The position numbers and the translations under genes were made by a program. Of a DNA stretch of 64,000 bases, positions 21,338 to 43,531 are shown piece by piece. Position 1 is the stretch's first letter. Each line of letters starts with the position of its first letter. The stretch covers positions 62,001 through 126,000 of the forward strand of contig NZ_VDGH01000005.1 of assembly GCF_006861795.1 (NCBI RefSeq). The letters are read 5' to 3'. The notes beneath the pieces were generated by a model, which saw only the letters and a program-made list of their open reading frames with translations, searched no databases and was not told the DNA's origin. This DNA is from Psychrobacillus lasiicapitis (lineage in GTDB: Bacteria; Bacillota; Bacilli; Bacillales_A; Planococcaceae).

Positions 21338-21432
<95 letters not shown>

Positions 21433-23753: not shown

Positions 23754-24584
23754 TTACGATCTAAAATGTCTATTTAAAGCTTCTTTTAAGGTATTTACAT
23801 CAAGTTCCAGATCTAACACATGCATTTTATCATGGCAATTTGGGCATAATGCAATTGAATTATAAATACTATCTTCTCCACCTTTTGAAAGCCAAATAAC
23901 ATGGTGGGAGTGAAGATGTGGTTCTCCCTTTTTGTTTTTATATGGTGCTGGCTTTTCACATAATTGACAGTTTCCTTTAGCCCACCTCTTTGTATATTCA
24001 GCTACGAAGGGATTTCTTTCATAATGCTTAGCAGTAACAGATCTTTTCGCTACTTTTTTACTTGCATTTTTTGCTCTTTTCGTCAGCTCTTCATCACTTA
24101 ATTTCTTCGCCAGTTTTTCCCGTTCGGATTCCTTAATATCAATTAACCTTTTTGGTATTCTTATAGGCTTTTTTCCATTAATAAGTTTAAGCGGAAATAT
24201 CCATACAGTTCTTAATTTTTTATCCTCTCCGAACTGCTCTTCTTGGTATGGATCTCCTGCTAACTCAACATTGCCAATAAATATATGCTCCTGAGGTTTT
24301 AAAACTTCAAAGAGAAATATATCAATTCCATTATTATTCGATTCTGCTAATGTTTTATTTTGCTGGAAGGATAGACTTTGAGGTCCATTTTTGCCCATTC
24401 CAGTATAATGAAAAATATCTCCTTCCCATCTATCCTCATAGAGTTTAGTATGATCAGATACGAGGACTAAAGTGTTAGTTTTAAGTGACCTTCTCATGCC
24501 CATATATATAGTACTTTTAAAAATTCCAGCTATTTCTTCATTATTTAATACCTGACCCACTTTAATATTCGGATTAAACTTCAT
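23754..24584 (-). CDS. SRA-like/HNH endonuclease, predicted modification-dependent restriction enzyme
   Basis: A 276-aa protein. The N-terminal half resembles an SRA/YDG base-flipping reader: MGMRRSLKTNTLVLVSDH, then FHYTGMGKNGPQSL, then a QNKTLAES segment and FEVLKP. The C-terminal part is an HNH nuclease with zinc-type cysteines CQLC and CPNC, the HSHHVIWLSKGG active site and NSIALCPNCHDKMH. Proteins with this architecture (for example TagI, ScoMcrA) cut DNA carrying modified cytosines. The ATG at 24582-24584 has a GGAG site; the longer frame lacks one. It is preceded by a 102-aa gene 38 bp upstream, probably in one operon. Confidence 0.75.
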   Translation of the reverse strand: MKFNPNIKVGQVLNNEEIAGIFKSTIYMGMRRSLKTNTLVLVSDHTKLYEDRWEGDIFHYTGMGKNGPQSLSFQQNKTLAESNNNGIDIFLFEVLKPQEHIFIGNVELAGDPYQEEQFGEDKKLRTVWIFPLKLINGKKPIRIPKRLIDIKESEREKLAKKLSDEELTKRAKNASKKVAKRSVTAKHYERNPFVAEYTKRWAKGNCQLCEKPAPYKNKKGEPHLHSHHVIWLSKGGEDSIYNSIALCPNCHDKMHVLDLELDVNTLKEALNRHFRS

Positions 24585-24622
24585 TATTTCACTCCTATTA
24601 ATCGGCATAACCATTCCTTCTA

Positions 24623-24931
24623 TTAGAAATAACTTTTAGCAACCCTGCGACTTGACCGTGTTTTCTTTAAATATAGACTCTTTACTTTCTTATGTAATAA
24701 ATCACCTTTAACTGGTGTACTTTTTATAGAGGCAGATACCTCACCTTGCTCAATGGTATATCCTAGACCATTTAAAACCTCCGCTGTTTTGGCAATGCTT
24801 CCATGAATTACATATGCATGAATTACTTGCTGCACAAAATTTTCAGGTTGATATTTCTCAATGAGTGCCACATATTCCTGAATCTCCTGTAAATCTTTTT
24901 TTGACTGTTCTAGAGTACGAAACGTTTTCAT
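24623..24931 (-). CDS. Small helical protein of unknown function upstream of the SRA-HNH gene
   Basis: A 102-aa basic protein, mostly helical: residues 1-30 look like an amphipathic helix (LEQSKKDLQEIQEYVALIEKY, quoted in part: KKDLQEIQEYVALIEK). Residues 45-75 look like a helix-turn-helix (GSIAKTAEVLNGLGYTIEQG). The tail is KKTRSSRR. It may be a regulator or partner of the endonuclease that follows. I do not recognise a family. Confidence 0.55.
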   Translation of the reverse strand: MKTFRTLEQSKKDLQEIQEYVALIEKYQPENFVQQVIHAYVIHGSIAKTAEVLNGLGYTIEQGEVSASIKSTPVKGDLLHKKVKSLYLKKTRSSRRVAKSYF

Positions 24932-25075
24932 TCAAATAAACCTCCCTGACCTTTATTACCATCACTATAAAATAGAGGGAACTCCACGTCAATACACTTA
25001 CTGAAAATTAACTCTATTAAATATATTATTAAGTATGGATTTACAACGCAAAGGTTATTTATGAACATAAAAAAA

Positions 25076-25094
25076 GCCGATTCCAAGGAATCGA
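25076..25094 (-). terminator. Terminator after the secreted nuclease gene
   Basis: CGATTCC pairs with GGAATCG, and the minus strand continues GCTTTTTTTATG. It lies between the nuclease lipoprotein (25221) and the 102-aa gene (24931). Confidence 0.75.
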
Positions 25095-25220
25095 CTGTTG
25101 AACTAAACCACCCGTTAGTCAATAATATTTAGTTCTTTTATTGACACAAAATTGCCAGTTATTACAATACGAGGGAAATATCCTTTAGTTCATTTATTTT
25201 ACCTCAAAGTTCCTAGATAC

Positions 25221-26192
25221 TTATTCCCCAACCATACCATCATTATCCCGATCATCCATATATGGATATAACCAATGATCACTTGTTATTGGCATGCTAT
25301 AACCTGCTGCTTTTGCTTCTTTAATCGTCACTTGTCCATTTCCATCTGTATCAACACTAGAAATATCTTCAGTGCCATTCGACGCATTGGACTTATTAGA
25401 ACTCGTTGACTTATTTGAGTTAGTTGATTTACTTTCAGTTAATCCTAGAGATTTATTTATTTCATCAGGGTTGCCGTTATCAAACTCATCTACAATTTTA
25501 TTCCCTTTTAAAGTGTAAGTGTACCTGTAATGAGAAGGAATCTGCGTTTCCGTATTAGGATATGTGATAATTGCTTCGATATTAGTAGCTCCACCAGCTT
25601 TACGAATAGCATCTTCCATATATGCTTGATCACCATGTCGGTTAAGCGTACTATCTTGTGGCGTAATATTATAAGCGTTCGATACCCCACCAAGAGAATC
25701 CGCAATAATATGTCCTTCATCTAAATCTGCTCTCTCGACCCCAGGAACTTTTGCTTCATCAGTGTAGTATCTGCCAGATGATGTAACGGGTTCGGTACTG
25801 TCATCTTGTAGAACGATTTCGTCAGCAATGACACGAACCAATTGCCCGTATTCATTAGTAAATGCCCAATATTCACGGTCCCCGTAACCAATGTCAACGA
25901 CGACGTTAGATTCACGATATCCAGACAAATCACCACCATCCACTTCAATAAGCCTGTATCCTGAGAACAGTTCATTATTTGGTTTGGGTGGTGTTTCCTC
26001 TACTACTGGTTCATCAACAACCGTAGTGATAGTTTCATCTTTTTCACTATAACTATTTATATTTGTTTCAACTGTGGTTACTTCTTGTGGATTTGTTTCT
26101 ACATCTGTATTGGATGTATCTTCTACGTTGGTACAACCAACCATAAAGATGGTTGTTAAAAGGAAGATTAAATAGTTCATTTTCTTTTTCAT
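25221..26192 (-). CDS. Secreted DNA/RNA non-specific endonuclease, lipoprotein with calcium-binding-type tail
   Basis: A 323-aa protein with a lipoprotein signal and lipobox MVGC (Cys20), then an acidic Thr/Glu-rich spacer. A nuclease domain follows (about 90-235) with the DEGHIIADSLGG active-site stretch and the Asn-rich NAYNITPQDSTLNRH. These match the Endonuclease_NS_2-type beta-beta-alpha-Me fold in which GH and N are catalytic. The last 45 residues hold two Asp-rich loops, DTDGNGQVT and DDRDNDGMVGE, of the dockerin/Excalibur kind. It is exported and likely membrane-anchored, so it may degrade external DNA or RNA. A TAGGAGAG site precedes the ATG. Confidence 0.8.
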   Translation of the reverse strand: MKKKMNYLIFLLTTIFMVGCTNVEDTSNTDVETNPQEVTTVETNINSYSEKDETITTVVDEPVVEETPPKPNNELFSGYRLIEVDGGDLSGYRESNVVVDIGYGDREYWAFTNEYGQLVRVIADEIVLQDDSTEPVTSSGRYYTDEAKVPGVERADLDEGHIIADSLGGVSNAYNITPQDSTLNRHGDQAYMEDAIRKAGGATNIEAIITYPNTETQIPSHYRYTYTLKGNKIVDEFDNGNPDEINKSLGLTESKSTNSNKSTSSNKSNASNGTEDISSVDTDGNGQVTIKEAKAAGYSMPITSDHWLYPYMDDRDNDGMVGE

Positions 26193-26266
26193 TTTATGAC
26201 TCTCCTATAATAGTTACTGTTCATTCTAAAAATCTCGCATTGTTAAGATAATTCAACGTTGTTTAC

Positions 26267-26413
26267 CTATTGATAATAGTATATTTAAGTGGGAAACTAA
26301 AGAAGGAACACTAGAGTACCTTACTATCTAGTGGTTGCATCGATAGGCAAAAAACTTTTAGCCTACTGCCACAAGGGATATGACGTTTAGAAAATATACT
26401 ATTATCTTATAGG
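26267..26413. repeat. Inverted-repeat element, MITE-like
   Basis: GATAATAGTATATTT (26273-26287) is exactly repeated inverted as AAATATACTATTATC (26392-26406), with CCTAT/ATAGG just outside. The interior can form a second hairpin (TAGGC/GCCTA inside GTGG/CCAC). No ORF in it. It has the form of a small non-autonomous element, though no target duplication is obvious. Confidence 0.5.
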
Positions 26414-26509
26414 CATTATAGGCTTAATAGGAGCATAGGGGGCTTTCTTGACAGACGCCACCCTGCTTTATGAAAATCAAAAAGAAAAAATGAAATGGAG
26501 ATGGTTTGA

Positions 26510-26632
26510 ATGCTTAAAGGAATTTTTAGATTTTTCGATATTTTGAGTAAAGTGAAAAAGTGGTTCAATAGAAACTTTGTTTTATTATTCGTAATACTAT
26601 TTTTTGCGATAGCTATTCTGAGTACATTATAA
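26510..26632 (+). CDS. Small single-pass membrane protein (40 aa)
   Basis: Too short to appear in usual ORF lists. ATG after GGAG at 9 bp spacing; basic amphipathic N-terminus (MLKGIFRFFDILSKVKKW), then one hydrophobic helix (FVLLFVILFFAIAILSTL) at the very end. It has the size and layout of type I toxin-like or small regulatory membrane peptides. An overlapping +1 frame encodes a TTG-started peptide ending in KWRWFECLKEFLDFSIF, so a frameshifted longer gene is the alternative. The rest of 26193-26820 shows only the inverted repeat at 26267. Confidence 0.45.
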   Translation: MLKGIFRFFDILSKVKKWFNRNFVLLFVILFFAIAILSTL

Positions 26633-26820
26633 TCTCTGCTATTTTTCGGTGATGGCGAGAATGGCAGTTACTATGTTTCATCATGTCTATGATCCATTTT
26701 GTAATATAGTTCATCCCCAATTTACTAGTATAAGTCATATGTCTGAATTTCATCCTACAGTAAGGTCAAGAGAGATAGATGGGATATAGCCATGTTGAAC
26801 ATTCGCCTTAACCCGTTTGG

Positions 26821-28008
26821 TCAATTTATTCCTATTAGTTCTCTTAATCTCTCTATGCTTAATACCTCATCTTTTTTTCTATGTACCATTCGATGACAAT
26901 TTGAACATAATGGAACTAAATCGGTTACTGGATTAATCTCTACTTCTTCCTCCAATGTGTTTAAAGGGTTAATATGATGAATTTCTATAAAGTCTTTCCC
27001 CCAATGTCCATACTTTTCTTCAAAATTAAATCCACAACCAAAGCAATTTAATCCATGTATTTCAATAGCTTTAATTCTATTTTTGGGGTTACGTTCATAT
27101 TTTTTCATATAATACTCCAGAGCTTTACCTTCTTTATGAACCGTGTAGTACTCCTTTTCTTCCAGATCGCTATCCGATTCAATGCGTTCATATTGATATT
27201 CATTACAAAACTTCACTTCTAAAACTAATGGCTCATCTTGAATACGGATTAATTGAAGTTTAGGTAGTTCCTCATCCTTAACATTTGCACCCAATTTATA
27301 CAGTTCGTAAATTTTAGGATAGCTATTTTGAATAACTTTTCTAAATTCGGCATTTAAAAACAGGCGAGTCCGAGGTCTAATCGCTTTATCCGCTTCTAAA
27401 TACGCTTGGTACGCTCTTTTATTAGAAAGAATAGTTATATTCTTTCTCTCACCAGAAAATACATTAGAAAATTTGAAAAAGTCTCTAACTTCATTAGGTA
27501 TTCCTGTTAATCCATATAAAATTAAAGACTTATCCATTTGCTTATTAGCAACATCATTACTTAGAATGTTCCAAGAGTAAAAAATGTTTTTAGTTGTTTT
27601 ATACAACTCATCAGCTTTAAATATACTAGTTTCCTTATTTCCTTCTCTAATTTCATTATAATAGGTTTTGATACATTTGCTCGTAAGTTCATACATATAG
27701 TCCACTAATTCATCGTTTTTAAGGTCTACTCTATTTGAAATTTGTAATGTCGATTGCAGGAAAACGATTATCTTCAAAATTTCAGATTCTGTTAATGTAT
27801 TTGACCGTTCTTTATAAAAGAAGGATTGATAATATGACATATCGTCAATATAATATCTAAAAAATCTTGTATCTTCTGGATATTTTAATGTAAATAACCT
27901 TACAGTGCTCAACAGACTATATAAGGATTCCTTGTTTTTGCTCAAATAATCTCTTCTTATTGGATCTGATATTTTTTTACTTGACCCTACATATAATTTA
28001 TTAGCCAT
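26821..28008 (-). CDS. HNH endonuclease with uncharacterised N-terminal region
   Basis: A 395-aa protein. Residues 1-290 are helical and unrecognised. Residues 300-395 form an HNH nuclease: CFGCGFNFEEKYG gives the first CxxC, DFIEIHHINPL the catalytic histidine, VTDLVPLCSNCHRMVHR the Asn/CxxC/His part. This is the McrA-type HNH with zinc ribbon. It is probably a restriction-type enzyme whose N-terminus recognises target DNA. It lies among two other HNH genes in the island and looks monocistronic. Confidence 0.75.
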   Translation of the reverse strand: MANKLYVGSSKKISDPIRRDYLSKNKESLYSLLSTVRLFTLKYPEDTRFFRYYIDDMSYYQSFFYKERSNTLTESEILKIIVFLQSTLQISNRVDLKNDELVDYMYELTSKCIKTYYNEIREGNKETSIFKADELYKTTKNIFYSWNILSNDVANKQMDKSLILYGLTGIPNEVRDFFKFSNVFSGERKNITILSNKRAYQAYLEADKAIRPRTRLFLNAEFRKVIQNSYPKIYELYKLGANVKDEELPKLQLIRIQDEPLVLEVKFCNEYQYERIESDSDLEEKEYYTVHKEGKALEYYMKKYERNPKNRIKAIEIHGLNCFGCGFNFEEKYGHWGKDFIEIHHINPLNTLEEEVEINPVTDLVPLCSNCHRMVHRKKDEVLSIERLRELIGIN

Positions 28009-28181
28009 ATTGATTCCCCCTTTTAATAAAAAAGCAATATACTAAAAAAATTCTCATACTCTTTAATAATCTTATAGAAGCTCTGATTTTTATTCTTCTT
28101 TCATTTAATTAACTTCAAATTTTGCTGTTACAGTCACATCTACGATACTCTTTAGATAAGTAGAGATGCAAACCAAAAGGC

Positions 28182-28208
28182 TCAAAAAAAGCCCCACTCC
28201 TAAGTGCG
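28182..28208 (-). terminator. Terminator after the DUF3006-like remnant
   Basis: On the minus strand CCCGCACT and AGTGGGG pair around a short loop, followed by CTTTTTTTGAG. The remaining 28009-28181 has no supported gene. Confidence 0.7.
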
Positions 28209-28226
28209 GGACATATAATAGTATTT

Positions 28227-28379
28227 TTATTTCGTATACTTCAATCTTTCAAGCAAAGTACTAACTTCATTCTTAGCCTCTTCTGTTCCGTTTTTCTAGA
28301 CGTTTATTTCATATCCTTCATCCAATATATCAATCTCTACGATATCCTTTTCTTCTAACGATCAAGTGTGTACTTTTTC
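28227..28379 (-). pseudogene. Decayed DUF3006-like small protein gene
   Basis: The frame reads EKVHT, stop, SLEEKDIVEIDILDEGYEINV, stop, KNGTEEAKNEVSTLLERL... (shown in parts), then a true end and a terminator. Two in-frame stops (TGA, TAG) interrupt otherwise coding-like sequence. The KDIVEI...KNEV..LLERL pattern resembles DUF3006 proteins, which I recall next to secreted nuclease-type genes in Firmicutes. The 5' end runs into the Excalibur gene at 28390. Confidence 0.55.
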
Positions 28380-28389
28380 TATGCCCTTA

Positions 28390-28944
28390 TTACTCGCATC
28401 CCCAACCGTCTTTATCACGGTCGAATTTCGATTTGTAGGCTGGATGGCTGCTTGATACTCCTCCTGGATATACTTTTCTTAACTCCGTACAATTTTTAAA
28501 TCCAGTTTGTACTGCAGGTGCTTTTGCAACTGGTGCTTTTGTTTTTGTTGTTACCACTGGTGCTTGAACCGGTGTTGGATTGTCTATCATATATTTTAGC
28601 AACTCCATTTTTGATTTTGATGGAGTTTCGTATTTTACCTTATCACCAGCTTGTACAAAACTACCTCCACCTACTCCGTATAAAGTGCCATCTGGATGAT
28701 TCTTAAAGCTATATACTCTGTACTCTTCACCTTTTTTTATTGCACGAACAGTGGTTAAAGATCCATCATCTTCTAACTCCACTAGAACTGTATCCGCTAA
28801 GATAGTTACTTTACCAATCTGCCCTAACTTTAACTCTGTTTTACCCCACATTACTGAAGCCGCATTAGTTGCATCGGCGGTGTAGGTACTAATCCCTAAT
28901 ATCATTACTAATAACAACAAAACTTTGATCAACTTTGAAAACAT
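28390..28944 (-). CDS. Secreted Excalibur-domain protein
   Basis: A 184-aa protein with a signal peptide (about 1-28, cleavage near ADA). Residues 30-120 form a module that starts MWGKTELKLGQIGKVTIL and ends GDKVKYETPSKSKME. A Pro/Val/Thr-Lys linker follows. The C-terminal Excalibur domain contains NCTELRKVYPGGV and DRDKDGWGCE, an EF-hand-like calcium-binding loop with two conserved cysteines. AAAGGGGGAG precedes the ATG. It probably stays in the wall or is released. The central module recurs at the C-terminus of the Ig-repeat protein at 34800. Confidence 0.82.
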   Translation of the reverse strand: MFSKLIKVLLLLVMILGISTYTADATNAASVMWGKTELKLGQIGKVTILADTVLVELEDDGSLTTVRAIKKGEEYRVYSFKNHPDGTLYGVGGGSFVQAGDKVKYETPSKSKMELLKYMIDNPTPVQAPVVTTKTKAPVAKAPAVQTGFKNCTELRKVYPGGVSSSHPAYKSKFDRDKDGWGCE

Positions 28945-29090
28945 TTACATCTCCCCCTTTCCTTATATAGTACAATTTGGAAGAGTTAAAGTCTATAGTA
29001 TTATTAGAAAAAGAAAAAAGAATCATTACAACAAGTTGTAGGGTATATTTTAGGTTAATTTTAACTTCATACCACCTTCATTAGGTTATT

Positions 29091-30011
29091 TCAATTTAAA
29101 AAGATATTCTTTTTATGCCACTTAAAATATTCTTTGTTCTCCTCATAAATAACAATCTTATATATAGAAACTAGTCCATATTTCAAATAGCTATCCTCCG
29201 GTATTTGCGTGGAAATATGCATTCTACCTTGTCCATCAAATGAAATGAAACCTTTATCATAAAGAGCGTCATGATTACAACATAATAACAATCCATTGTA
29301 TGGATCAATTCTTTCTATATCAATACTATCTTTCCAAGGTTTAGCATGGCTCGCACGAAGTAATTCGGGTAATTCTATATCACAAATTGCACATTTATGC
29401 TCCCATAAAGGCATTAAGTTTTTACGGAACTTTTGCTGTCCTAAACGAATCTTTGTTTTCACTTCTGCTTCAGTTTCAGCAATCATTGGGATAAAAGTAT
29501 TACGCTCCGTACGACGTACTGTACCAATAGCTAATTCCAGCTGTTCTTCATCTACTTGGTAAATATTAAGGTCACTGATTAGTTCTAACAATTTTATTGC
29601 AAGTTCCTCATTACAAGGATACAGATATCCTTGGTTACCATTTGAATCCGCTTGAAACGGTGAATACTTAATTGGTAAGAGCGGTAAAATATCTTCAAAT
29701 TTAGAACGTATCTTTACTGACTCTTCAAGTTCATGGTATTCCAGTTCCACTAAATATCCTTTATCGTTCCAGCGTTCATGAGTTTGCATACTTGAGGGCT
29801 TACTCGCTGTCTTACATCCAGTTTTAGCAATACTAATAGCCACAATATACCCTCTTACATAATGAAAAATACGGTCCCCAGTCTCAACCTCAGTCATCCT
29901 TAACCATGAATGTGGCACATTTCCACTTCTATCTTTTTGTGGCGACCATATAATCCCTAATTCTTTCTCCTCTTGATATGTGTGACCTTGCATAACGATG
30001 AAGCTTTTCAT
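29091..30011 (-). CDS. EVE-like/HNH endonuclease, predicted modification-dependent restriction enzyme
   Basis: A 306-aa protein. Residues 1-110 look like a PUA/EVE-type reader: GIIWSPQKDRSG, then WLRMTEVETGDRIFHYVRGY, then AISIAKTGC. A linker of about 100 residues leads to a C-terminal HNH nuclease with CAICDIELPELLRASHAKPW and IDPYNGLLLCCNHDALYDKG; the catalytic His, Asn and His are all present. EVE-HNH enzymes such as VcaM4I cut DNA with modified cytosine. This assignment is from motifs and architecture only. It stands alone upstream of the Excalibur gene. Confidence 0.72.
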   Translation of the reverse strand: MKSFIVMQGHTYQEEKELGIIWSPQKDRSGNVPHSWLRMTEVETGDRIFHYVRGYIVAISIAKTGCKTASKPSSMQTHERWNDKGYLVELEYHELEESVKIRSKFEDILPLLPIKYSPFQADSNGNQGYLYPCNEELAIKLLELISDLNIYQVDEEQLELAIGTVRRTERNTFIPMIAETEAEVKTKIRLGQQKFRKNLMPLWEHKCAICDIELPELLRASHAKPWKDSIDIERIDPYNGLLLCCNHDALYDKGFISFDGQGRMHISTQIPEDSYLKYGLVSIYKIVIYEENKEYFKWHKKNIFLN

Positions 30012-30317: not shown

Positions 30318-30977
30318 TTATTTAGAAATATAGTAACAATTTGTGCCTGTATCTAGAATATCAATGAAATCTACACAATTTATTGTGTTATTGATCCCAA
30401 CTTTGAATGTATTTCCTGTAGTGTAATTAATGTCAAGATGATGCAAGGGATGCAACCTACCATTTTCAAGCTTCACATCATAATCATAACGCAAGTAACC
30501 AGATTCAAATACAAGCAACTTTTTTAATATTTGCCAGATTTGATCTTTATTAGGTTGCTGTTCAAAACTCTCTAATATTCGCATAACGTCTGAATCTAAA
30601 TCTAATATACCTTGATTCTCTTCTCCATTAAAAATTTCTTGGAAAGTTGTTGTTATTACGGCATGGTTTACTCCTGTTATCTCTAAATCAGTCATAGAAT
30701 CGTAAATAACAGGGTTTTTTACCTCTGGAAGCACATCAACATTAAAAGGAAAGTTAAAAGAATAGATTTTGTCATCAATTACAAAAAATAACCGTTTCAT
30801 TTTGTCAACTCTTAGAACAATATAATTATTATCTGGTCTTTCTACAATCTCACCGAATGAAAGTAATGGAATAGCCTCTAACAATAGCATGATAATATCG
30901 TTTTTAGTTCTAATTATTTCAGATGCTAATTGGACGAATCTTCTTGTCATATTTACTTTAAATTCTTTCATTATCAT
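30318..30977 (-). CDS. 219-aa partner protein of the helicase unit, DUF2290-like
   Basis: A soluble protein of 219 aa (217 if the third codon ATG is used). A beta-rich centre (YIVLRVDKMKRLFFVIDD) is followed by a C-terminal half with YLRYDYDVKLENGRLHPLHH, then LDINYTTGNTFKVGI and VDFIDIL. The LHPLHHLDINY pattern is my main reason to compare it with DUF2290. It starts 4 bp after the stop of the helicase gene, so they form one operon. A shared terminator follows. Role unknown; presumably a cofactor, sensor or effector of the helicase. Confidence 0.6.
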   Translation of the reverse strand: MIMKEFKVNMTRRFVQLASEIIRTKNDIIMLLLEAIPLLSFGEIVERPDNNYIVLRVDKMKRLFFVIDDKIYSFNFPFNVDVLPEVKNPVIYDSMTDLEITGVNHAVITTTFQEIFNGEENQGILDLDSDVMRILESFEQQPNKDQIWQILKKLLVFESGYLRYDYDVKLENGRLHPLHHLDINYTTGNTFKVGINNTINCVDFIDILDTGTNCYYISK

Positions 30978-30981
30978 ACAC

Positions 30982-32991
30982 CTAAAGCAACTCTATATTT
31001 TTTGCTATTAACGCATAAATTTTATCTGCATCTACGCTATCTTTTGCCATTACATTAACAAGGTTCTGAATTTTCCCCTTTTTATCAGGGTCTTCAATTC
31101 CAAAACTTTTTAATATTTCTTCTATAATGTCAAATTGAGATTTATTAATATTAGCTTCCAACATTAGTTTAGAAGTATCCATAATCTCATTAGATTTTGG
31201 TTCCTTAACTGTTAGATGTCCTGTTTCAATTATTTCATTCACTGCGACTTCTAGACGATTATTTAGGACACCATTACTTTCAGAAAGAATTAAATAACTA
31301 GTAATAAATGATCTTGTCAGCATCATATATAATGAATTACGTATAGTTGTACTACTATTAAGAGGTGTAGTAGTTATACATATAATAAATGGAAATTCTA
31401 GCCCTTTTATATTGTTACGATTACTTATAAATAAAGTATTCTTTTTCTTATCCTTCACCTCATATCCTTTAATCGCTGACCAACCAAACATCTGATCAAC
31501 TTTTATAATTAAGCTTTCTGCTAGGTTATAGTTCCCGTTATTATTCTCGAGGAAAACAACACCAATATCACCAGCTTCAACGGTCGGGTTTTTTTCTTTA
31601 ATATCTTGTATTGCCCAAATTACTTTATCCAAATAATTATCTTCCTCAGCTGTAGATAATTTAATGCTAGTAATATTATCTTCAAGGTTTTCAAATCTTT
31701 TTAATGGCTCTCTGGAAAAACTGTAATACTCCCCCTCCTTTTCAATAGTATATCCACAGGCCAGCCACTCCTCATCACTTAACCACCTTACAACTGGTCG
31801 CTCTAGAATACCAAAACCAACTGCATGGGCAAACATTAGAGTTTTAGGGTCTGTTCTGTAAACTCTATTTAAAAGAAAATCGGGCTTATCTTTGGCTATT
31901 CCATTGTAATCATAAATATTTTGGAATATATCACCAGCTATGTAGACTTGTTTTTTAGTAACTTTTTCACATAATTTGAAGAAAGTGTCATTAAAGTCCT
32001 GGCTTTCATCTATTAAAATGTAATCAAAAAACGGCTCAAACGCTCCTTCTTGTTCTAGTTCATTTAGCCTTTCCAATGCATTTTTACACACTGATTCAAA
32101 AGAGACCGCCCAACTATACCTTTGAAAAGGAATTTTATAATGATTACATATAAAACTATACACACCAGAATTTTTATCTGCTTGAGACCCCCAACTACGT
32201 TCTACCCAAAGCCGTTCATTCCATTTAATTTGTTCTCTAACCTTCATAAAGTCAAAAAAATTAGGAATACGGTCTTTTAAATCTTTTGCCAAAATCGTAT
32301 TGAAGCATGTAAAAAATATTTTTGAATCTTCCTCATTAATGTAAATATCCTTCAGTTTATGTAGGAGCAGTTCTGTTTTTCCTGTTCCAGCTAAACCTTG
32401 AATTGTTACTCTTTTTTTATCCATTTGTTCAAAGATAAACCTTGTCTGCTCGCCATCAAATAAAATAATATTTCTCTTAATCTGTTCTAAAGAGCTACTA
32501 GGTAGATCACCTTTAACACGATCAATATCGTTTATACTCCCAGTTAATAGAGAGATTAGAAGCTCACCTTTTCTTACATTTATATCAAGTAAGATATTAC
32601 TCTCTATATATGAGATAATACTATCATTATCCCCAAAATTTATTTCTTTTGTTAATTCTTCTTGCCATTTTCTAGGTCTACCTAAAAAGCTTTTATAATC
32701 ATATTTATCCGAAATAATCCCTAAGTCTTCTATAAAGTCTCCTGCAAATTCTTCAAATGAATCATTATCTCCACCAACATTAATGAATAATAACTTAACT
32801 TCTGGTATTAAAATTACTAATGCATCTTTATAAGAATATTGATATTTCCTTTCACCTATAGGCTTATCAATAACATAAACCTGTCTTTTTTCCCGTTCTG
32901 CAAATAATTCTAAGTCACTTAAAATAGAACGGATTCTAGGATTACTTACCTTTTCTAAATCTAATTGCTCAAAATAATAACTGTTATCCAC
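30982..32991 (-). CDS. SF1 (UvrD/Rep-like) helicase with unusual N-terminal region
   Basis: A 669-aa protein. An N-terminal region of about 190 residues without recognisable motifs precedes a superfamily 1 helicase core. The core has Walker A GLAGTGKT (199-206), Walker B DESQD (328-332), motif III AGDIFQNIYDY (352-362), motif IV NRVYRTD, motif V NIKGLEFPFI, and motif VI MLTRS. All ATPase motifs are intact. A helical C-terminal tail of about 80 residues follows. It is the first gene of a two-gene unit with the 219-aa protein. Placement among restriction nucleases suggests phage defence. I recall a predicted helicase-DUF2290 pair in defence surveys. Confidence 0.8.
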   Translation of the reverse strand: MDNSYYFEQLDLEKVSNPRIRSILSDLELFAEREKRQVYVIDKPIGERKYQYSYKDALVILIPEVKLLFINVGGDNDSFEEFAGDFIEDLGIISDKYDYKSFLGRPRKWQEELTKEINFGDNDSIISYIESNILLDINVRKGELLISLLTGSINDIDRVKGDLPSSSLEQIKRNIILFDGEQTRFIFEQMDKKRVTIQGLAGTGKTELLLHKLKDIYINEEDSKIFFTCFNTILAKDLKDRIPNFFDFMKVREQIKWNERLWVERSWGSQADKNSGVYSFICNHYKIPFQRYSWAVSFESVCKNALERLNELEQEGAFEPFFDYILIDESQDFNDTFFKLCEKVTKKQVYIAGDIFQNIYDYNGIAKDKPDFLLNRVYRTDPKTLMFAHAVGFGILERPVVRWLSDEEWLACGYTIEKEGEYYSFSREPLKRFENLEDNITSIKLSTAEEDNYLDKVIWAIQDIKEKNPTVEAGDIGVVFLENNNGNYNLAESLIIKVDQMFGWSAIKGYEVKDKKKNTLFISNRNNIKGLEFPFIICITTTPLNSSTTIRNSLYMMLTRSFITSYLILSESNGVLNNRLEVAVNEIIETGHLTVKEPKSNEIMDTSKLMLEANINKSQFDIIEEILKSFGIEDPDKKGKIQNLVNVMAKDSVDADKIYALIAKNIELL

Positions 32992-34799: not shown

Positions 34800-36812
34800 T
34801 CAGTCCACTTGTTGAAAAATGACTTGTTCATCTTTTACTACATATCGACCATCACCAATGTAATAGGTACTTGGTACATATCGATATACTCTAAATTGCT
34901 GTCCTTTTTTCAAAACACGAGATGATTTTTTGTTTTTATTAATTGTTTCCCAAACAACAATATCTTCTAGAATTGTTACTTTCCCAATCTGGCCAGACTT
35001 CAATTCTAATCCCTTCCACATTATTCCTGACGATTTAGACCCAAATTGAGCATTTTTAATTAACATTTTTTTGGATGGCGTTTCATAGTTAATGGCACTT
35101 GTACGTTCAATCCATGTATTTCCTCCAAGTCCGAGCATTTGCGGAATCTCTTCATAAACCAAGTTGTAGTTGTCCACTTTTAAGTAATCTACTTTTATTA
35201 AACGATTGTTTAATTGCTTGTAAACTGGCACTATATTTTTTAGTTTCAAGCACCCTATAGCATTAAATACTAAACTCTCATGATAGCACTTTTGCAGATT
35301 TTCTTTTCCGTTATCTATCACCACAATATTCTCAATAGGTGGCGGATTGGGATTAGGGTTAGGGTTAGAATTAGGGTTATCATCTGGAGCAATATATTTT
35401 TTAATTATTACTTCTGTTGCTTTACTCTGGTTACCAGCAGCATCTGTTGCCGTTAAATATAGTATTGTGCCCGCTTTTTGTTTCTCTATCTCTACGGTAT
35501 ATTTCCCTTCGCTAGTAGTAATTGCTGTTCCTATTACTTTATTTCCAACTTTAACTGTGATTATCGACCCCACTTCTGCCGTACCTGTAATAGTCTTAGA
35601 AATTTCTATTACATCATTCACCGATGGCGATTCTGGTGGGGTCAAATCTTCAGGTGGAATATTACCAACTGTGAAGTCAGTGATATATCCCTGTGGTAAA
35701 TTATTGTATCCATCAAATAAAACAAGCTCATTTCCTGCTTTATCATTCAAAGTAATTTGTTGTAATTTCCAAAGTCCAAACTCAGCACCCTCCCTGACCT
35801 TATAACTCCCCATCCAATAATCCCCGGCTATATCATGATTAAGAGTTAAAGACGCAAAACTATTTTCTGAAGGACTTTTATAATAAAACAAAACTTCGTT
35901 TACACCAGACATATCATCCGTTACTTTTGCTTTTACCGTAACAGTTTCTCCTACTTTCACATTAAGTGGACTTACTTCAATATTTTCTATGACTGGGGGT
36001 GTTTTATCCCCGCCAGATTCATTCTCTATAGTGAAACTGGTAAGATCTTCATCAGGTAAATTATTATTATTTTTATGTAGATAAAGATCATTTCCTGCTT
36101 TATCTTCGATAAAAATAGAATCCAAAATCCATTTTCCACTTTCATCATTTGACTGGGCGAAATATATCCCTTCAAAAAGCCCTTCATTTTCCTTATACAG
36201 TCTGACAGATCTCCTACTATTTGATGATGGAGAAGAATAATTCATTGAGACATGCTCTACACCAGACATATCATCTGATACTTTCGCCTTTACCGTAACA
36301 TATTCCCCAACTTTTAAATTAAGCGGACTTACTTCAATATTATCTAGTACGGGTGGTGTTACATCTCCGCCAGTATCATTTTCAATGGTAATTATGGTAA
36401 GATCTTCATCGAGTACATTATTTTCTTTATTTACAGGTAGATGGTTAAATGCTTTATCACTTATTACCATATAATCAAAAGTCCATTTTCCATTCTCATC
36501 ATATGACTGTACAGTATATTTTCCTTCCCAAAATCCTTCATTGTTTTGGGAAAGATTAAATATCATCATTTTGTTTTGTGATGATGGTGAATTATAAACC
36601 ATACCTACATGCGCTACTCCCGACATATCATCCGTTACTTTCGCTTTTACTGTAATAGTTTCTCCAACTTTTACAGTAAGCGGACTTACTTCAATACTTT
36701 CTAGTACTGGTGGAGTTACATCTTCGTTAGCAAATACACTATCAACTGGCAATATTAGTGTATAGATTATACATAAAATCATCGTCATCGTTAGTAATAA
36801 TATCTTCTTCAC
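34800..36812 (-). CDS. Secreted multi-domain surface protein with three Ig-like repeats
   Basis: A 670-aa protein with a signal peptide (about 1-28, ending SVFA). There are three repeats of about 120 residues that begin TPPVLESIEVSPLTVKVGET and run to acidic LPDEDLTSFTIEN-type ends. A bacterial Ig-like domain follows (PPESPSVNDVIEISKTITG... through ATDAAGNQSKA), then an Asn-Pro repeat linker. The C-terminal module has WKGLELKSGQIGKVTILED and FRVYRYVPSTYYIG. No LPXTG anchor or membrane tail is visible. It is likely a wall-associated or released adhesin-type protein. The last module matches the Excalibur protein at 28390. Confidence 0.78.
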   Translation of the reverse strand: MKKILLLTMTMILCIIYTLILPVDSVFANEDVTPPVLESIEVSPLTVKVGETITVKAKVTDDMSGVAHVGMVYNSPSSQNKMMIFNLSQNNEGFWEGKYTVQSYDENGKWTFDYMVISDKAFNHLPVNKENNVLDEDLTIITIENDTGGDVTPPVLDNIEVSPLNLKVGEYVTVKAKVSDDMSGVEHVSMNYSSPSSNSRRSVRLYKENEGLFEGIYFAQSNDESGKWILDSIFIEDKAGNDLYLHKNNNNLPDEDLTSFTIENESGGDKTPPVIENIEVSPLNVKVGETVTVKAKVTDDMSGVNEVLFYYKSPSENSFASLTLNHDIAGDYWMGSYKVREGAEFGLWKLQQITLNDKAGNELVLFDGYNNLPQGYITDFTVGNIPPEDLTPPESPSVNDVIEISKTITGTAEVGSIITVKVGNKVIGTAITTSEGKYTVEIEKQKAGTILYLTATDAAGNQSKATEVIIKKYIAPDDNPNSNPNPNPNPPPIENIVVIDNGKENLQKCYHESLVFNAIGCLKLKNIVPVYKQLNNRLIKVDYLKVDNYNLVYEEIPQMLGLGGNTWIERTSAINYETPSKKMLIKNAQFGSKSSGIMWKGLELKSGQIGKVTILEDIVVWETINKNKKSSRVLKKGQQFRVYRYVPSTYYIGDGRYVVKDEQVIFQQVD

Positions 36813-37420: not shown

Positions 37421-37975
37421 ATGAACAGTGAAGATAAAATATACGAAACATTAGCCTTAGGTATGTATCATCGTTTTTGCAGCATTGATAATTTGAGTCA
37501 GATCGGAAGCAATGTAAAAGAAAACCCAATAATGTTCGAAAGCTTTGTTGCACTAGTAATGGAAAATACACTTGGTGGTAAAGCTACTGTTACACAACCA
37601 TCTGGTGACTTTGGAGTAGATATAGTACACACACTTAAGAACAAAGATACGTACCTTGCCCAAGTTAAATGTTATAACCCTACTGATAAAATTAAATACG
37701 AACCAATTTCAATTCTCCATTCAAACATAGTAAAAAGAAATGCTGTTGGTGGCTACTTCGTTACTACGAGTGATTATAACGATAATGCCAAGAAATATGC
37801 AGAGGGTCTAAATATTAAGCTAATTAATGGTTTTGAATTGGCCCAGTATTGGCTAGGGGAAAAAGAAAGCTGGGTTCATGAAGCTAAAAACAAAACATTC
37901 TTAGAAGAATTGTTCAGTGGAATAGAGAGTTTTTTCGAAGAAATATACAATTCAATCGTGAAAAAAGTTAAATGA
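37421..37975 (+). CDS. Mrr-like restriction endonuclease
   Basis: A 184-aa cytosolic protein. Residues 45-140 match the Mrr_cat type PD-(D/E)xK fold: a helix with FESFVALVMENTL, then TQPSGDFGVDIVHTLKNKDT, then AQVKCYNP carrying the Q-x-K catalytic pair, and a helix before GGYFVTTSDY. Aspartate near residue 67 and lysine near residue 86 are the likely catalytic residues. No separate DNA-recognition domain is visible, so target choice is unclear. It is one of few plus-strand genes in the island; a GGGG-type site lies upstream. Confidence 0.75.
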   Translation: MNSEDKIYETLALGMYHRFCSIDNLSQIGSNVKENPIMFESFVALVMENTLGGKATVTQPSGDFGVDIVHTLKNKDTYLAQVKCYNPTDKIKYEPISILHSNIVKRNAVGGYFVTTSDYNDNAKKYAEGLNIKLINGFELAQYWLGEKESWVHEAKNKTFLEELFSGIESFFEEIYNSIVKKVK

Positions 37976-38419: not shown

Positions 38420-39901
38420 TTAACTAATTTGCTTTACAAGATTCTCATATTGTCTTCTAGGTAACATCTTCTGTAAAGTCTTTTTATCAAAGAAGTGTAT
38501 AATGCAAGAATTAAAGGAATCAGAATAGTTCAAACCATTACACACTACTTTAAATGAAGAATCTTTTTCTTCTTCATATTCAATATTCATTTTATAAACG
38601 TTTGGTTTTTTTTCCTTTTTTATTACCTTACCATGCTCATTTCGTACATGGCGATTACGTTCAATTATTTCTATAACTCCGTTTTGTTCAAGTACATCAA
38701 TCAAATTTCGTGTTGTTTTTTCTGCTAAACCGCTCGCTTCGCTCATTTGCCTAAATACCATATAAAAATTGCCATTCTTCATTGCATATCTTTTACTATG
38801 TATGAGTAAGCAATAGGTCAACAGCTTTTCATTTTTACTTTTCAATTGCAATATCTGTCTCATTTCCTCATATGTAACGAATAAATCCTTTTCTTCTATC
38901 GTTAAACTTACCTCATTTTCGTAGATGTACTTGACGCTAGATTGTATATCTTTAATACAATCTTCCCATTTAGTTGTATAACACCTTGTATCTTGTTCAC
39001 TCAGCCACTCAACCAATTTCTTGTAATTTTCTTCTTCCGTTAAGCCTTGATGACGAAAATATTTTGCTAATTTAAATAATGAATTATGTCTCATGCCTGT
39101 TGTGGTTAATCCTGTATGTAACAATTTTTCGATTGCTTCAATCGTTTCCTGTTCACCTATGTTTTCCCTATATATTTTTAAGGGTGTATACTTGCTATCA
39201 ATAAATCCTCTTACTTCTTCAACCTCTCTAACTTCTTTTTCTTCAACCATATCACGTTCACGCTCTAAGATATTGTAAATAGTCCCAATGTCCATTTGTT
39301 TAATCTTGAGAATATATTGCACATTTCGAATTGGCTTTAAACCTTTGTAATAATCCACATACCAACAACGGGGTTTACGCTTATTTTTAAAGTTAATTCC
39401 TAGCGGTAGTTTTACCCCCTGTCTCATTCCATTAGGTCGGTACTCTACCTCTCCATAATCAATCTTTAACAATTCTGATTTATTCATGGTCAACAAATAT
39501 AACTCGTGAGCCAATTCGTTTTTAATTGGTTCATTGAAATATAAATCAACATGATAACCTTTGTTGCCACTTATAGAAATATGAATTTCCTCATTCTGTA
39601 TACCAAGTTCCATTAGTGCATTTACTAGACGATAAACGGTCCATTTAGCTTTTACCTTATCTTTAACATCTATATCAAAACATATAAATTTTGTGTGATA
39701 GGTAGAAGAAAAGACACCTAATGTTGCTTTTCCATCTATATGCCTCTGTACAACATAGTCGTTTAAAGGAAATACCTTTTCATTTTTATAACTGTTAAAA
39801 GTTTGATAATTACCATGTTCAGATAGAATCAAATACTGATACCTCGCCATAATAAACAGCTCATTTATTTTTTTTATTATATCCTTATTTTTATTAGACA
39901 T
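38420..39901 (-). CDS. AEP primase-type replication initiation protein
   Basis: 493 aa. The N-terminal domain (about 15-210) shows the archaeo-eukaryotic primase pattern. FDID (75-78) supplies the metal-binding acidic pair, SGNKGYH (111-117) the histidine motif, and EYRPNGMRQGVKLPLGI a third conserved block, as in TOTE-type primases. The C-terminal part (from about 340) has a winged-helix look, EASGLAEKTTRNLIDVLEQN, suitable for origin binding. No helicase domain is present, so host helicase is probably used. It is likely the replication protein of the island. AGAGGA precedes the ATG. Confidence 0.78.
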   Translation of the reverse strand: MSNKNKDIIKKINELFIMARYQYLILSEHGNYQTFNSYKNEKVFPLNDYVVQRHIDGKATLGVFSSTYHTKFICFDIDVKDKVKAKWTVYRLVNALMELGIQNEEIHISISGNKGYHVDLYFNEPIKNELAHELYLLTMNKSELLKIDYGEVEYRPNGMRQGVKLPLGINFKNKRKPRCWYVDYYKGLKPIRNVQYILKIKQMDIGTIYNILERERDMVEEKEVREVEEVRGFIDSKYTPLKIYRENIGEQETIEAIEKLLHTGLTTTGMRHNSLFKLAKYFRHQGLTEEENYKKLVEWLSEQDTRCYTTKWEDCIKDIQSSVKYIYENEVSLTIEEKDLFVTYEEMRQILQLKSKNEKLLTYCLLIHSKRYAMKNGNFYMVFRQMSEASGLAEKTTRNLIDVLEQNGVIEIIERNRHVRNEHGKVIKKEKKPNVYKMNIEYEEEKDSSFKVVCNGLNYSDSFNSCIIHFFDKKTLQKMLPRRQYENLVKQIS

Positions 39902-42305: not shown

Positions 42306-43280
42306 TTATAGGTATTCCCTTAAATCAGATGCGACCTGTTCTACATCTAAATCTAAATATTGAGTAGTCACACCGAGATCTGAGTGTCCTAGTGCTTTAC
42401 TAATGAGAGCTACATTCGCTCCCTTGTTCAACAAATTCTTGGCATAAGCTCGTCTAAGTGCATGTGCATTGATGTTTGTTAAGCCATATTTTTTACTATA
42501 CTTTGTCAATTGCTTTGAGATTGCGTTATTTGTTGATTTTGTATTTAACGATGTTCCTTTTGTTGAAATGAAAACATTTTTATTCTGCTCATTATAGTGA
42601 CTCCGTATCTTTTGGTTTTGCTGAATTAGTATTTGTAGCAACTTAAGTAATTGATTATCAAGAGGCAATTTTAAAAACTGATGATTCTTTAGAATAGCCC
42701 CATCCATATAAATAACCATGTTATTGAAATCGATATGCTTCTCTTCTAGCTGTCCTAAAGTATTGATTCGAATGCCTGTTTTGTACATAGTAAGTACCGC
42801 TACTGCATCACGTAAGCCTACGAAGGTATTTAAATCTAACAATGACAATAAGATTTGTATATCCTTCTCATCTGCTCCCTTTTTAACCTTCTTATCGACC
42901 TTTACAGACACCATTTGCCAAAACTTAGACTCATACCACCCATTATTGAAACACTTGCTTAAAAATGATTTTAAAGCCTTAAGTCTAGTCAGCTTTGTTT
43001 GGTTCGACACTTGCATTTGTTCAAGCCATCCATAGATTGTATTAAGCGTAATATCCGACAGATACTGAACATCTTGAACTTTCCTGAAGCCTCTTATAAT
43101 AGTCTCATAATCTTTGATAGTCCGATGCCTGTAGCCACTCGCTGTCATCTGCTGAACAATGATTCCTGATGCTTCATCAATAGTTCTTGAATTAACCCTC
43201 TGTGAACCGGTTTGCTCGGGAACTAACATAATACTATCTAAATCAATATTCACGTCAAACAGCCCTGTTTTCTTTGTCAT
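42306..43280 (-). CDS. Tyrosine recombinase/integrase of the island
   Basis: 324 aa. The N-terminal core-binding (SAM-like) domain is near 45-130, with the pattern YRHRTIKDYETIIRGFRKVQ. The catalytic domain has the first arginine in TGIRINTLGQL, HALRRAYAKNLL with His and Arg, LGHSDLGVTTQYL with the second His and the tyrosine nucleophile. All catalytic residues are present. ATG at 43278-43280 follows GGAGG; the longer frame is not supported. It lies 156 bp from the right tRNA-Arg repeat, typical for an integrase beside its attachment site, with no excisionase recognised. Confidence 0.9.
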   Translation of the reverse strand: MTKKTGLFDVNIDLDSIMLVPEQTGSQRVNSRTIDEASGIIVQQMTASGYRHRTIKDYETIIRGFRKVQDVQYLSDITLNTIYGWLEQMQVSNQTKLTRLKALKSFLSKCFNNGWYESKFWQMVSVKVDKKVKKGADEKDIQILLSLLDLNTFVGLRDAVAVLTMYKTGIRINTLGQLEEKHIDFNNMVIYMDGAILKNHQFLKLPLDNQLLKLLQILIQQNQKIRSHYNEQNKNVFISTKGTSLNTKSTNNAISKQLTKYSKKYGLTNINAHALRRAYAKNLLNKGANVALISKALGHSDLGVTTQYLDLDVEQVASDLREYL

Positions 43281-43350
43281 AACAAAAAATCCTCCATTCA
43301 ATTGAATTAGAAGATAGTTTCGGTATAAATTTACATAAAATGACAGGGAT

Positions 43351-43436: not shown

Positions 43437-43531
<95 letters not shown>

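Follow-up and report, generated by a model that had tools for sequence, protein, structure and literature searches.

Three HNH endonucleases with different candidate DNA readers on a tRNA-Arg-bounded island of Psychrobacillus lasiicapitis

Our analysis concerns a 64,000-nucleotide stretch of the Psychrobacillus lasiicapitis genome (contig NZ_VDGH01000005.1, positions 62,001 to 126,000), hereafter the window, and three genes encoded on its minus strand: P1 (23754..24614, 286 amino acids), P4 (26821..28008, 395 amino acids) and P6 (29091..30011, 306 amino acids). Each of them encodes a solitary HNH endonuclease. In our opinion, the genes are probably a mobile type IV restriction cargo, namely three modification-dependent enzymes that have a common nuclease module and differ in the domains reading DNA. 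P1 and P6 belong to known type IV kinds, while P4 is best read as a B3-HNH variant absent from the families and literature that we searched.

The HNH enzymes and the readers of P1 and P6

As was proposed in a first-pass annotation made from the letters of the window, all three genes are intact open reading frames (ORFs), and the regions preceding their nuclease domains differ from one protein to another. The HNH domains exceed the Pfam cut-offs in every case (PF01844 at 1.5e-9 in P1 and 6.8e-6 in P4; HNH_2 at 5.9e-11 in P6), and the metal- or zinc-binding and HNH residues (cysteine and histidine motifs) are complete. Such a cluster is not a matter of chance, since across the 4.49-Mb genome a PF01844 HNH domain at E<=0.001 is encoded by just two genes, P1 and P4, which are 3 kb apart.

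P6 was assigned to the VcaM4I family, with every feature that could be examined in the sequence agreeing. Its residues 5-304 align to VcaM4I (PDB 6yex) at 4e-50, covering the full-length architecture of an EVE domain (29571..30011, minus strand) and an HNH_2 domain (29100..29474, minus strand). In VcaM4I, the pocket is formed by P24, W82 and Y130, the intercalating wedge is Q128, and the active site consists of H224, N241 and D250 (PMC7897488). All seven residues are conserved in P6: the pocket as P24, W81 and Y129, the wedge as Q127, and the HND active site as H222, N239 and D248. Thus, the earlier identification of this protein as an EVE-HNH enzyme is borne out by homology along the whole length and by the retention of all four pocket and wedge residues. 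A PUA-like pocket, whose absence from every N-terminal region the annotation had named as grounds for giving up its reading, is therefore present in at least one of them. Judging from the residue-level identity with VcaM4I, P6 would flip 5-methylcytosine (5mC) or 5-hydroxymethylcytosine into the EVE pocket and cut with its HNH domain.

P1 is supported as an SRA-HNH protein by profile similarity. Scans of the genome collection with single proteins found no relatives of P1 or P4, and these were gathered by whole-genome searches and alignment queries; the relatives of P1 are 46-53% identical to it over nearly the full length. A profile built of nine N-terminal domains of the P1 family matches the SRA part of ScoMcrA (5zmn) at 1.5e-4, and SAD_SRA matches appear in six of the nine members (best E 0.0015), all of them below the Pfam cut-off. 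This agrees with the SRA-like region that had been suggested for P1, which would occupy residues of about 15-150 (24165..24572, minus strand). The HNH domain, at residues of about 190-270 (23805..24047, minus strand), keeps its C-x2-C / HH / C-x2-C pattern intact and is closest to that of EcoKMcrA (6ghc, 3e-16). By homology, P1 would most likely read modified cytosine through an SRA-like pocket and then cut with the HNH domain.

Two further arrangements of the P1-like SRA domain were observed among the relatives. At one locus (L069), it is joined to an HNH_2-type nuclease resembling the HNH domain of P6, which points to module shuffling. At another (L057:5397-8262), it is encoded by a stand-alone gene directly upstream of a B3-McrB gene.

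The middle domain of P4 and its relatives

Residues 1-290 of P4 gave no meaningful match in Pfam, NCBIfam, PADLOC or PDB sequences. The first-pass annotation had taken this part as one unrecognised region that could hold a new reader of modified DNA. A domain of the DNA-reader type that is not catalogued is indeed present, but whole-genome searches split the region into two domains, at residues of about 1-140 and about 144-275. The former, domain A (27589..28008, minus strand), is predicted to be all-helical with low confidence: its model has a low pLDDT (predicted local distance difference test), and the helical structural matches were uninformative. Its one relative found is a 271-amino-acid protein of genome G053, which joins domain A to an HNH domain of another kind. 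The HNH domain of P4 itself, at residues of about 295-392 (26833..27126, minus strand), has intact residues and matches that of EcoKMcrA (8.2e-5), this sequence match being confined to residues 297-388.

Structure prediction assigns the second domain (27184..27579, minus strand) to the B3 fold and not to the PUA fold. AlphaFold2 was run on the homologous domain of Kurthia huakuii with 24 aligned sequences, the inputs leaving out the G053 relative of domain A and other loci from genome searches, and gave a model with a pLDDT of 86.6 and a pTM (predicted template modelling score) of 0.79. When this model was compared with known structures by VIA-align 2, the top 17 matches were all B3 domains (Z 10.3-5.9), and the next ones, to unrelated folds, came at Z 3.8. 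Plant FUS3 and LEC2 (both 10.3) and VAL1 (10.0) scored highest, with LlaJI.R1 at 7.9, EcoRII-N at 7.3 and NgoAVII at 6.6-5.9. Foldseek also placed B3 chains first in the PDB at a weak E of 0.025, so that our assignment rests on the VIA-align Z-scores; against viral structures, Foldseek returned nothing significant. In the model of P4 itself, the B3 core mostly reaches a pLDDT of about 80-90, and residues 144-273 match the B3 domains of TEM1 (Z 5.3), LlaJI.R1 and VRN1 (both Z 4.2). Finally, a profile of the B3 subfamily built without P4 picked out P4 as the sole significant ORF among the 210 of the window (2.5e-7). The subfamily has no match in Pfam or PADLOC.

A PUA-like or base-flipping fold had been considered for this part of P4, and structure comparison gives B3 instead: the confident Kurthia model has only B3 matches above Z 4. 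NEco, SRA and EVE were not among the matches listed for it, which is in itself no proof of their absence.

The first relatives of the B3 domain to be seen were one B3-HNH protein and several McrB-type GTPases. The module is now represented by 23 named loci in Bacillota, and it occurs in 16 of the 398 genomes sampled across the phylum, counting that of the window. Its architectures include B3-HNH with several HNH types, B3-McrB, B3-EVE-McrB, B3-DUF3578-type-McrB, a protein with a GIY-YIG-like C-terminus and stand-alone domains, the labels EVE, DUF3578, GIY-YIG and McrB having been read by eye from the sequences, with no family scan. Some of the fusions carry a further N-terminal domain. McrB is the commonest partner, and a large McrC-type ORF lies downstream of nearly all B3-McrB genes, as was confirmed for one of them (L046, DUF2357 and PDDEXK_7). 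Across fusions with different nucleases, the module keeps an N-arm motif, K-x-V-D-x-S...G...IP. Because a pattern from this very arm had served to collect many of the loci, its conservation is partly biased, and we give the motif less weight as a sign of a shared ligand.

A motif scan, which for N6/N4 types covered the loci of relatives only, found no cognate methyltransferase adjoining P4, the Kurthia B3-HNH gene or the B3-McrB genes. Two relatives are linked with phosphorothioation. In Kurthia huakuii, the B3-HNH gene (6001-6879 of L041:1-11817) stands among homologues of SspH, SspB, SspC, SspD, PbeA and PbeC in an Ssp/Pbe locus, and in Saccharibacillus (L062:678-6486), a stand-alone B3 gene of 162 amino acids begins 25 nt after SspB-SspC-SspD. 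A separate observation concerns the protein with the GIY-YIG-like C-terminus (L135:7741-13569), which is encoded beside ATPase and helicase genes resembling a defence cluster.

The island and its host

The HNH genes lie within a 22-kb region bounded by two identical 95-bp copies of tRNA-Arg(tct), at 21338..21432 on the left and 43437..43531 on the right. A tyrosine integrase (42306..43301, minus strand; Phage_integrase, 1.2e-26) adjoins the right copy, and a resolvase is encoded in the island as well. Empty or nearly empty sites occur in relatives. In genome G016, a near relative with a flanking gene 96% identical, and in genome G008, a stretch of no more than 3.5 kb takes in the flanking genes for amidohydrolase, tRNA-Arg and YfcE, hence the island is missing there. 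The perfect 95-bp repeat could plausibly represent attL and attR. It may also predate the island, because G016 has, without the island, two tRNA-Arg genes in tandem, 304 bp apart.

Homologues of the EVE-HNH gene (54-74% identical) occupy the same tRNA-Arg(tct)/YfcE site in six other members of the genus, with neither P1 nor P4 there, and the site is thus a hotspot (L149-L158). In three of these six, the gene is found between two inverted tRNA-Arg copies, only 1.6-5.3 kb apart.

The cluster described in the first-pass annotation is real, although the description omitted two of its genes: a secreted Endonuclea_NS_2 lipoprotein between P1 and P4 (25221-26192) and a secreted or surface-type Excalibur protein between P4 and P6 (28390-28944). 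An ORF of 102 amino acids (24623..24931, minus strand), placed 8 bp upstream of P1, is probably co-transcribed with it; this ORF has no match in Pfam or PADLOC and nothing meaningful in NCBIfam. Upstream of the HNH cluster, two genes encode an STM2766/STM2767 helicase-associated protein and helicase (30318..32991, minus strand; NCBIfam NF053714 at 1.7e-60 and NF053713 at 4.9e-272). The island also includes a stand-alone restriction endonuclease of the Mrr family (37421..37975, plus strand; Mrr_cat, 2.2e-19) and a TOTE-like archaeo-eukaryotic primase with a winged helix-turn-helix (38420-39901), which is probably the replication protein of the island. A secreted protein with Ig-like repeats is encoded at 34800-36812, its internal repeats being 357 bp long.

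Regarding possible targets in the host's own DNA, no PF00145 C5-methyltransferase was found in the host genome, the same search being positive in 10 of 14 controls. A P1 that cuts at 5mC would accordingly spare the host by that route. PAPS (3'-phosphoadenosine-5'-phosphosulfate) reductase is likewise missing from the host genome, with positive controls, and a search of the host for DUF4007 gave no match, but here the controls were silent too.

Competing explanations and known systems

We suppose that P4 docks on DNA by its B3 pseudobarrel, perhaps aided by domain A, and cuts with the HNH domain, and that B3 would most likely help to recognise DNA that is modified or has some other non-self feature. 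Such a role is suggested by the relatives, which have no cognate methyltransferase, and by the repeated occurrence of B3 together with EVE- or DUF3578-type readers in McrBC systems. Dependence on modification, or on another non-self feature, is also the simplest assumption for P4, because a cutter of a short unmodified site that has no methyltransferase would destroy its host. Several points weigh against our reading of the three enzymes. With 20-30% identity to its family, the B3 domain of P4 has diverged, and it is shortened near its C-terminal end; the full AlphaFold2 model of P4 is poor (mean pLDDT 54). P1 scores 12.7 bits against PF02182, under the Pfam gathering score of 30.7, a figure that is a detection threshold and not a structural feature. 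Moreover, the B3 domains of restriction enzymes with an established specificity (EcoRII-N, NgoAVII, BfiI and LlaJI.R1) recognise unmodified sequence. For P4, the claim of the first-pass annotation thus stands as to the uncatalogued reader-type domain, while modification reading may be deduced just from the McrBC recurrence without a methyltransferase and from the two phosphorothioation loci.

The last of these points leads to the main rival view of P4, which we find unlikely: a solitary B3-HNH enzyme of type II-like or homing-like character would cut sequence-specifically at a rare unmodified site, have nothing to do with modified bases, and either serve the mobility of the island or attack particular invaders. 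Among the structural matches of the P4 family are B3 domains that read sequence, namely those of EcoRII, NgoAVII and LlaJI.R1. LlaJI, a B3-McrB fusion system with two methyltransferases, recognises sites free of modification (PMC7680126, PMC12707154). Among the relatives, a B3-HNH protein (L129) and the one that shares domain A (L138) are encoded in prophage-like or integrase-bearing regions, and a rare, long unmodified site is still conceivable. A short unmodified target, however, would be lethal in view of the missing methyltransferase. The K-x-V-D-x-S stretch of the N-arm is constant across fusions (partly an effect of biased recruitment), whereas sequence-specificity domains usually diversify, and B3 can stand in the same polypeptide as readers of the EVE or DUF3578 type. 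In a different scenario, which we regard as rather doubtful, the P4-type B3 subfamily would read non-canonical DNA, for instance a phosphorothioated backbone or an Ssp-marked motif, in HNH, GIY-YIG and McrBC effectors alike; it would then be a modification sensor built on B3 and would provide some Ssp systems with their restriction arm. We consider it very improbable that P4 is a mere relic, degenerate or without activity. Near-invariant positions of its N-arm are altered (LIGRK to DVANK) and the FYxTGxPF strand region is missing, yet the frame is open at full length, the HNH and zinc residues are complete, and the invariant K, D, S, G, P, F and N of the B3 family are kept.

As for the trio as a whole, there is about an even chance that P1, P4 and P6 are unrelated passengers gathered in a tRNA-Arg defence hotspot, each acting alone, which for each single enzyme is compatible with modification-dependent restriction. 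As a unit, the trio is not conserved: the six other genus members have EVE-HNH at this locus without P1 and P4, and P1-like and P4-like genes are found in other relatives without their partners. Set against this, the genome has no PF01844 HNH genes other than P1 and P4, which are close to each other and next to the EVE-HNH gene, and readers that complement one another would be favoured jointly when carried by a single island. The layered anti-phage defence proposed in the first-pass annotation is therefore plausible, though no relative that we examined carries all three enzymes. Our analysis establishes the genes and their domain architecture, the B3 subfamily's fold, the integrity of the catalytic residues, the spread of the B3 module over several nuclease types, and the island; modification dependence and an anti-phage function of the trio are inferred.

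Restriction enzymes are known to sense modified DNA mainly through PUA-type domains (SRA, EVE and YTH) and through DUF3578, NEco, SBD and winged-helix domains. If our view of P4 is correct, a B3 subfamily common to HNH, GIY-YIG and McrBC enzymes adds a fold to this list and links bacterial restriction with the fold of plant B3 transcription factors. B3 would then be a sensor uncatalogued for HNH restriction enzymes, though present in other bacterial restriction enzymes. No B3-HNH restriction enzyme was found in the open-access literature that we searched, where the single paper retrieved on the combination does no more than cite work on B3, and its novelty is provisional. Published surveys of phosphorothioation neighbourhoods (PMC10853773), BREX (PMC12839542) and McrBC (PMC11090510) gave no match to B3 or EcoRII terms in their main text.

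Compared with known systems, P6 shares with VcaM4I the whole-length architecture, base pocket, wedge glutamine and HND residues, and we saw no structural difference. P1 has the order of the SRA-HNH enzymes of the TagI and ScoMcrA type, with an SRA-like domain followed by HNH; it differs in the HNH domain, nearest to EcoKMcrA, and in having no SBD of ScoMcrA, and its SRA similarity is remote. EcoKMcrA, a NEco-HNH protein, is the nearest solved structure to the HNH modules of both P4 and P1. Its NEco domain is described as built around a six-stranded antiparallel sheet (PMC7145662), whereas the reader of P4 would be a B3 domain with a helical one. The type II enzymes EcoRII (EcoRII-N), BfiI and NgoAVII carry, like P4, a B3 pseudobarrel on a nuclease. 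Their nucleases are not HNH, and all three belong to restriction–modification systems with methyltransferases (for NgoAVII, see also PMC4267653). LlaJI differs from P4 and its relatives in its two methyltransferases and unmodified site, and P4 uses HNH instead of McrBC. Nevertheless, LlaJI.R1 and other B3-McrB proteins place a B3 reader at the N-terminus, as in P4, and the P4 B3 subfamily itself occurs on McrB.

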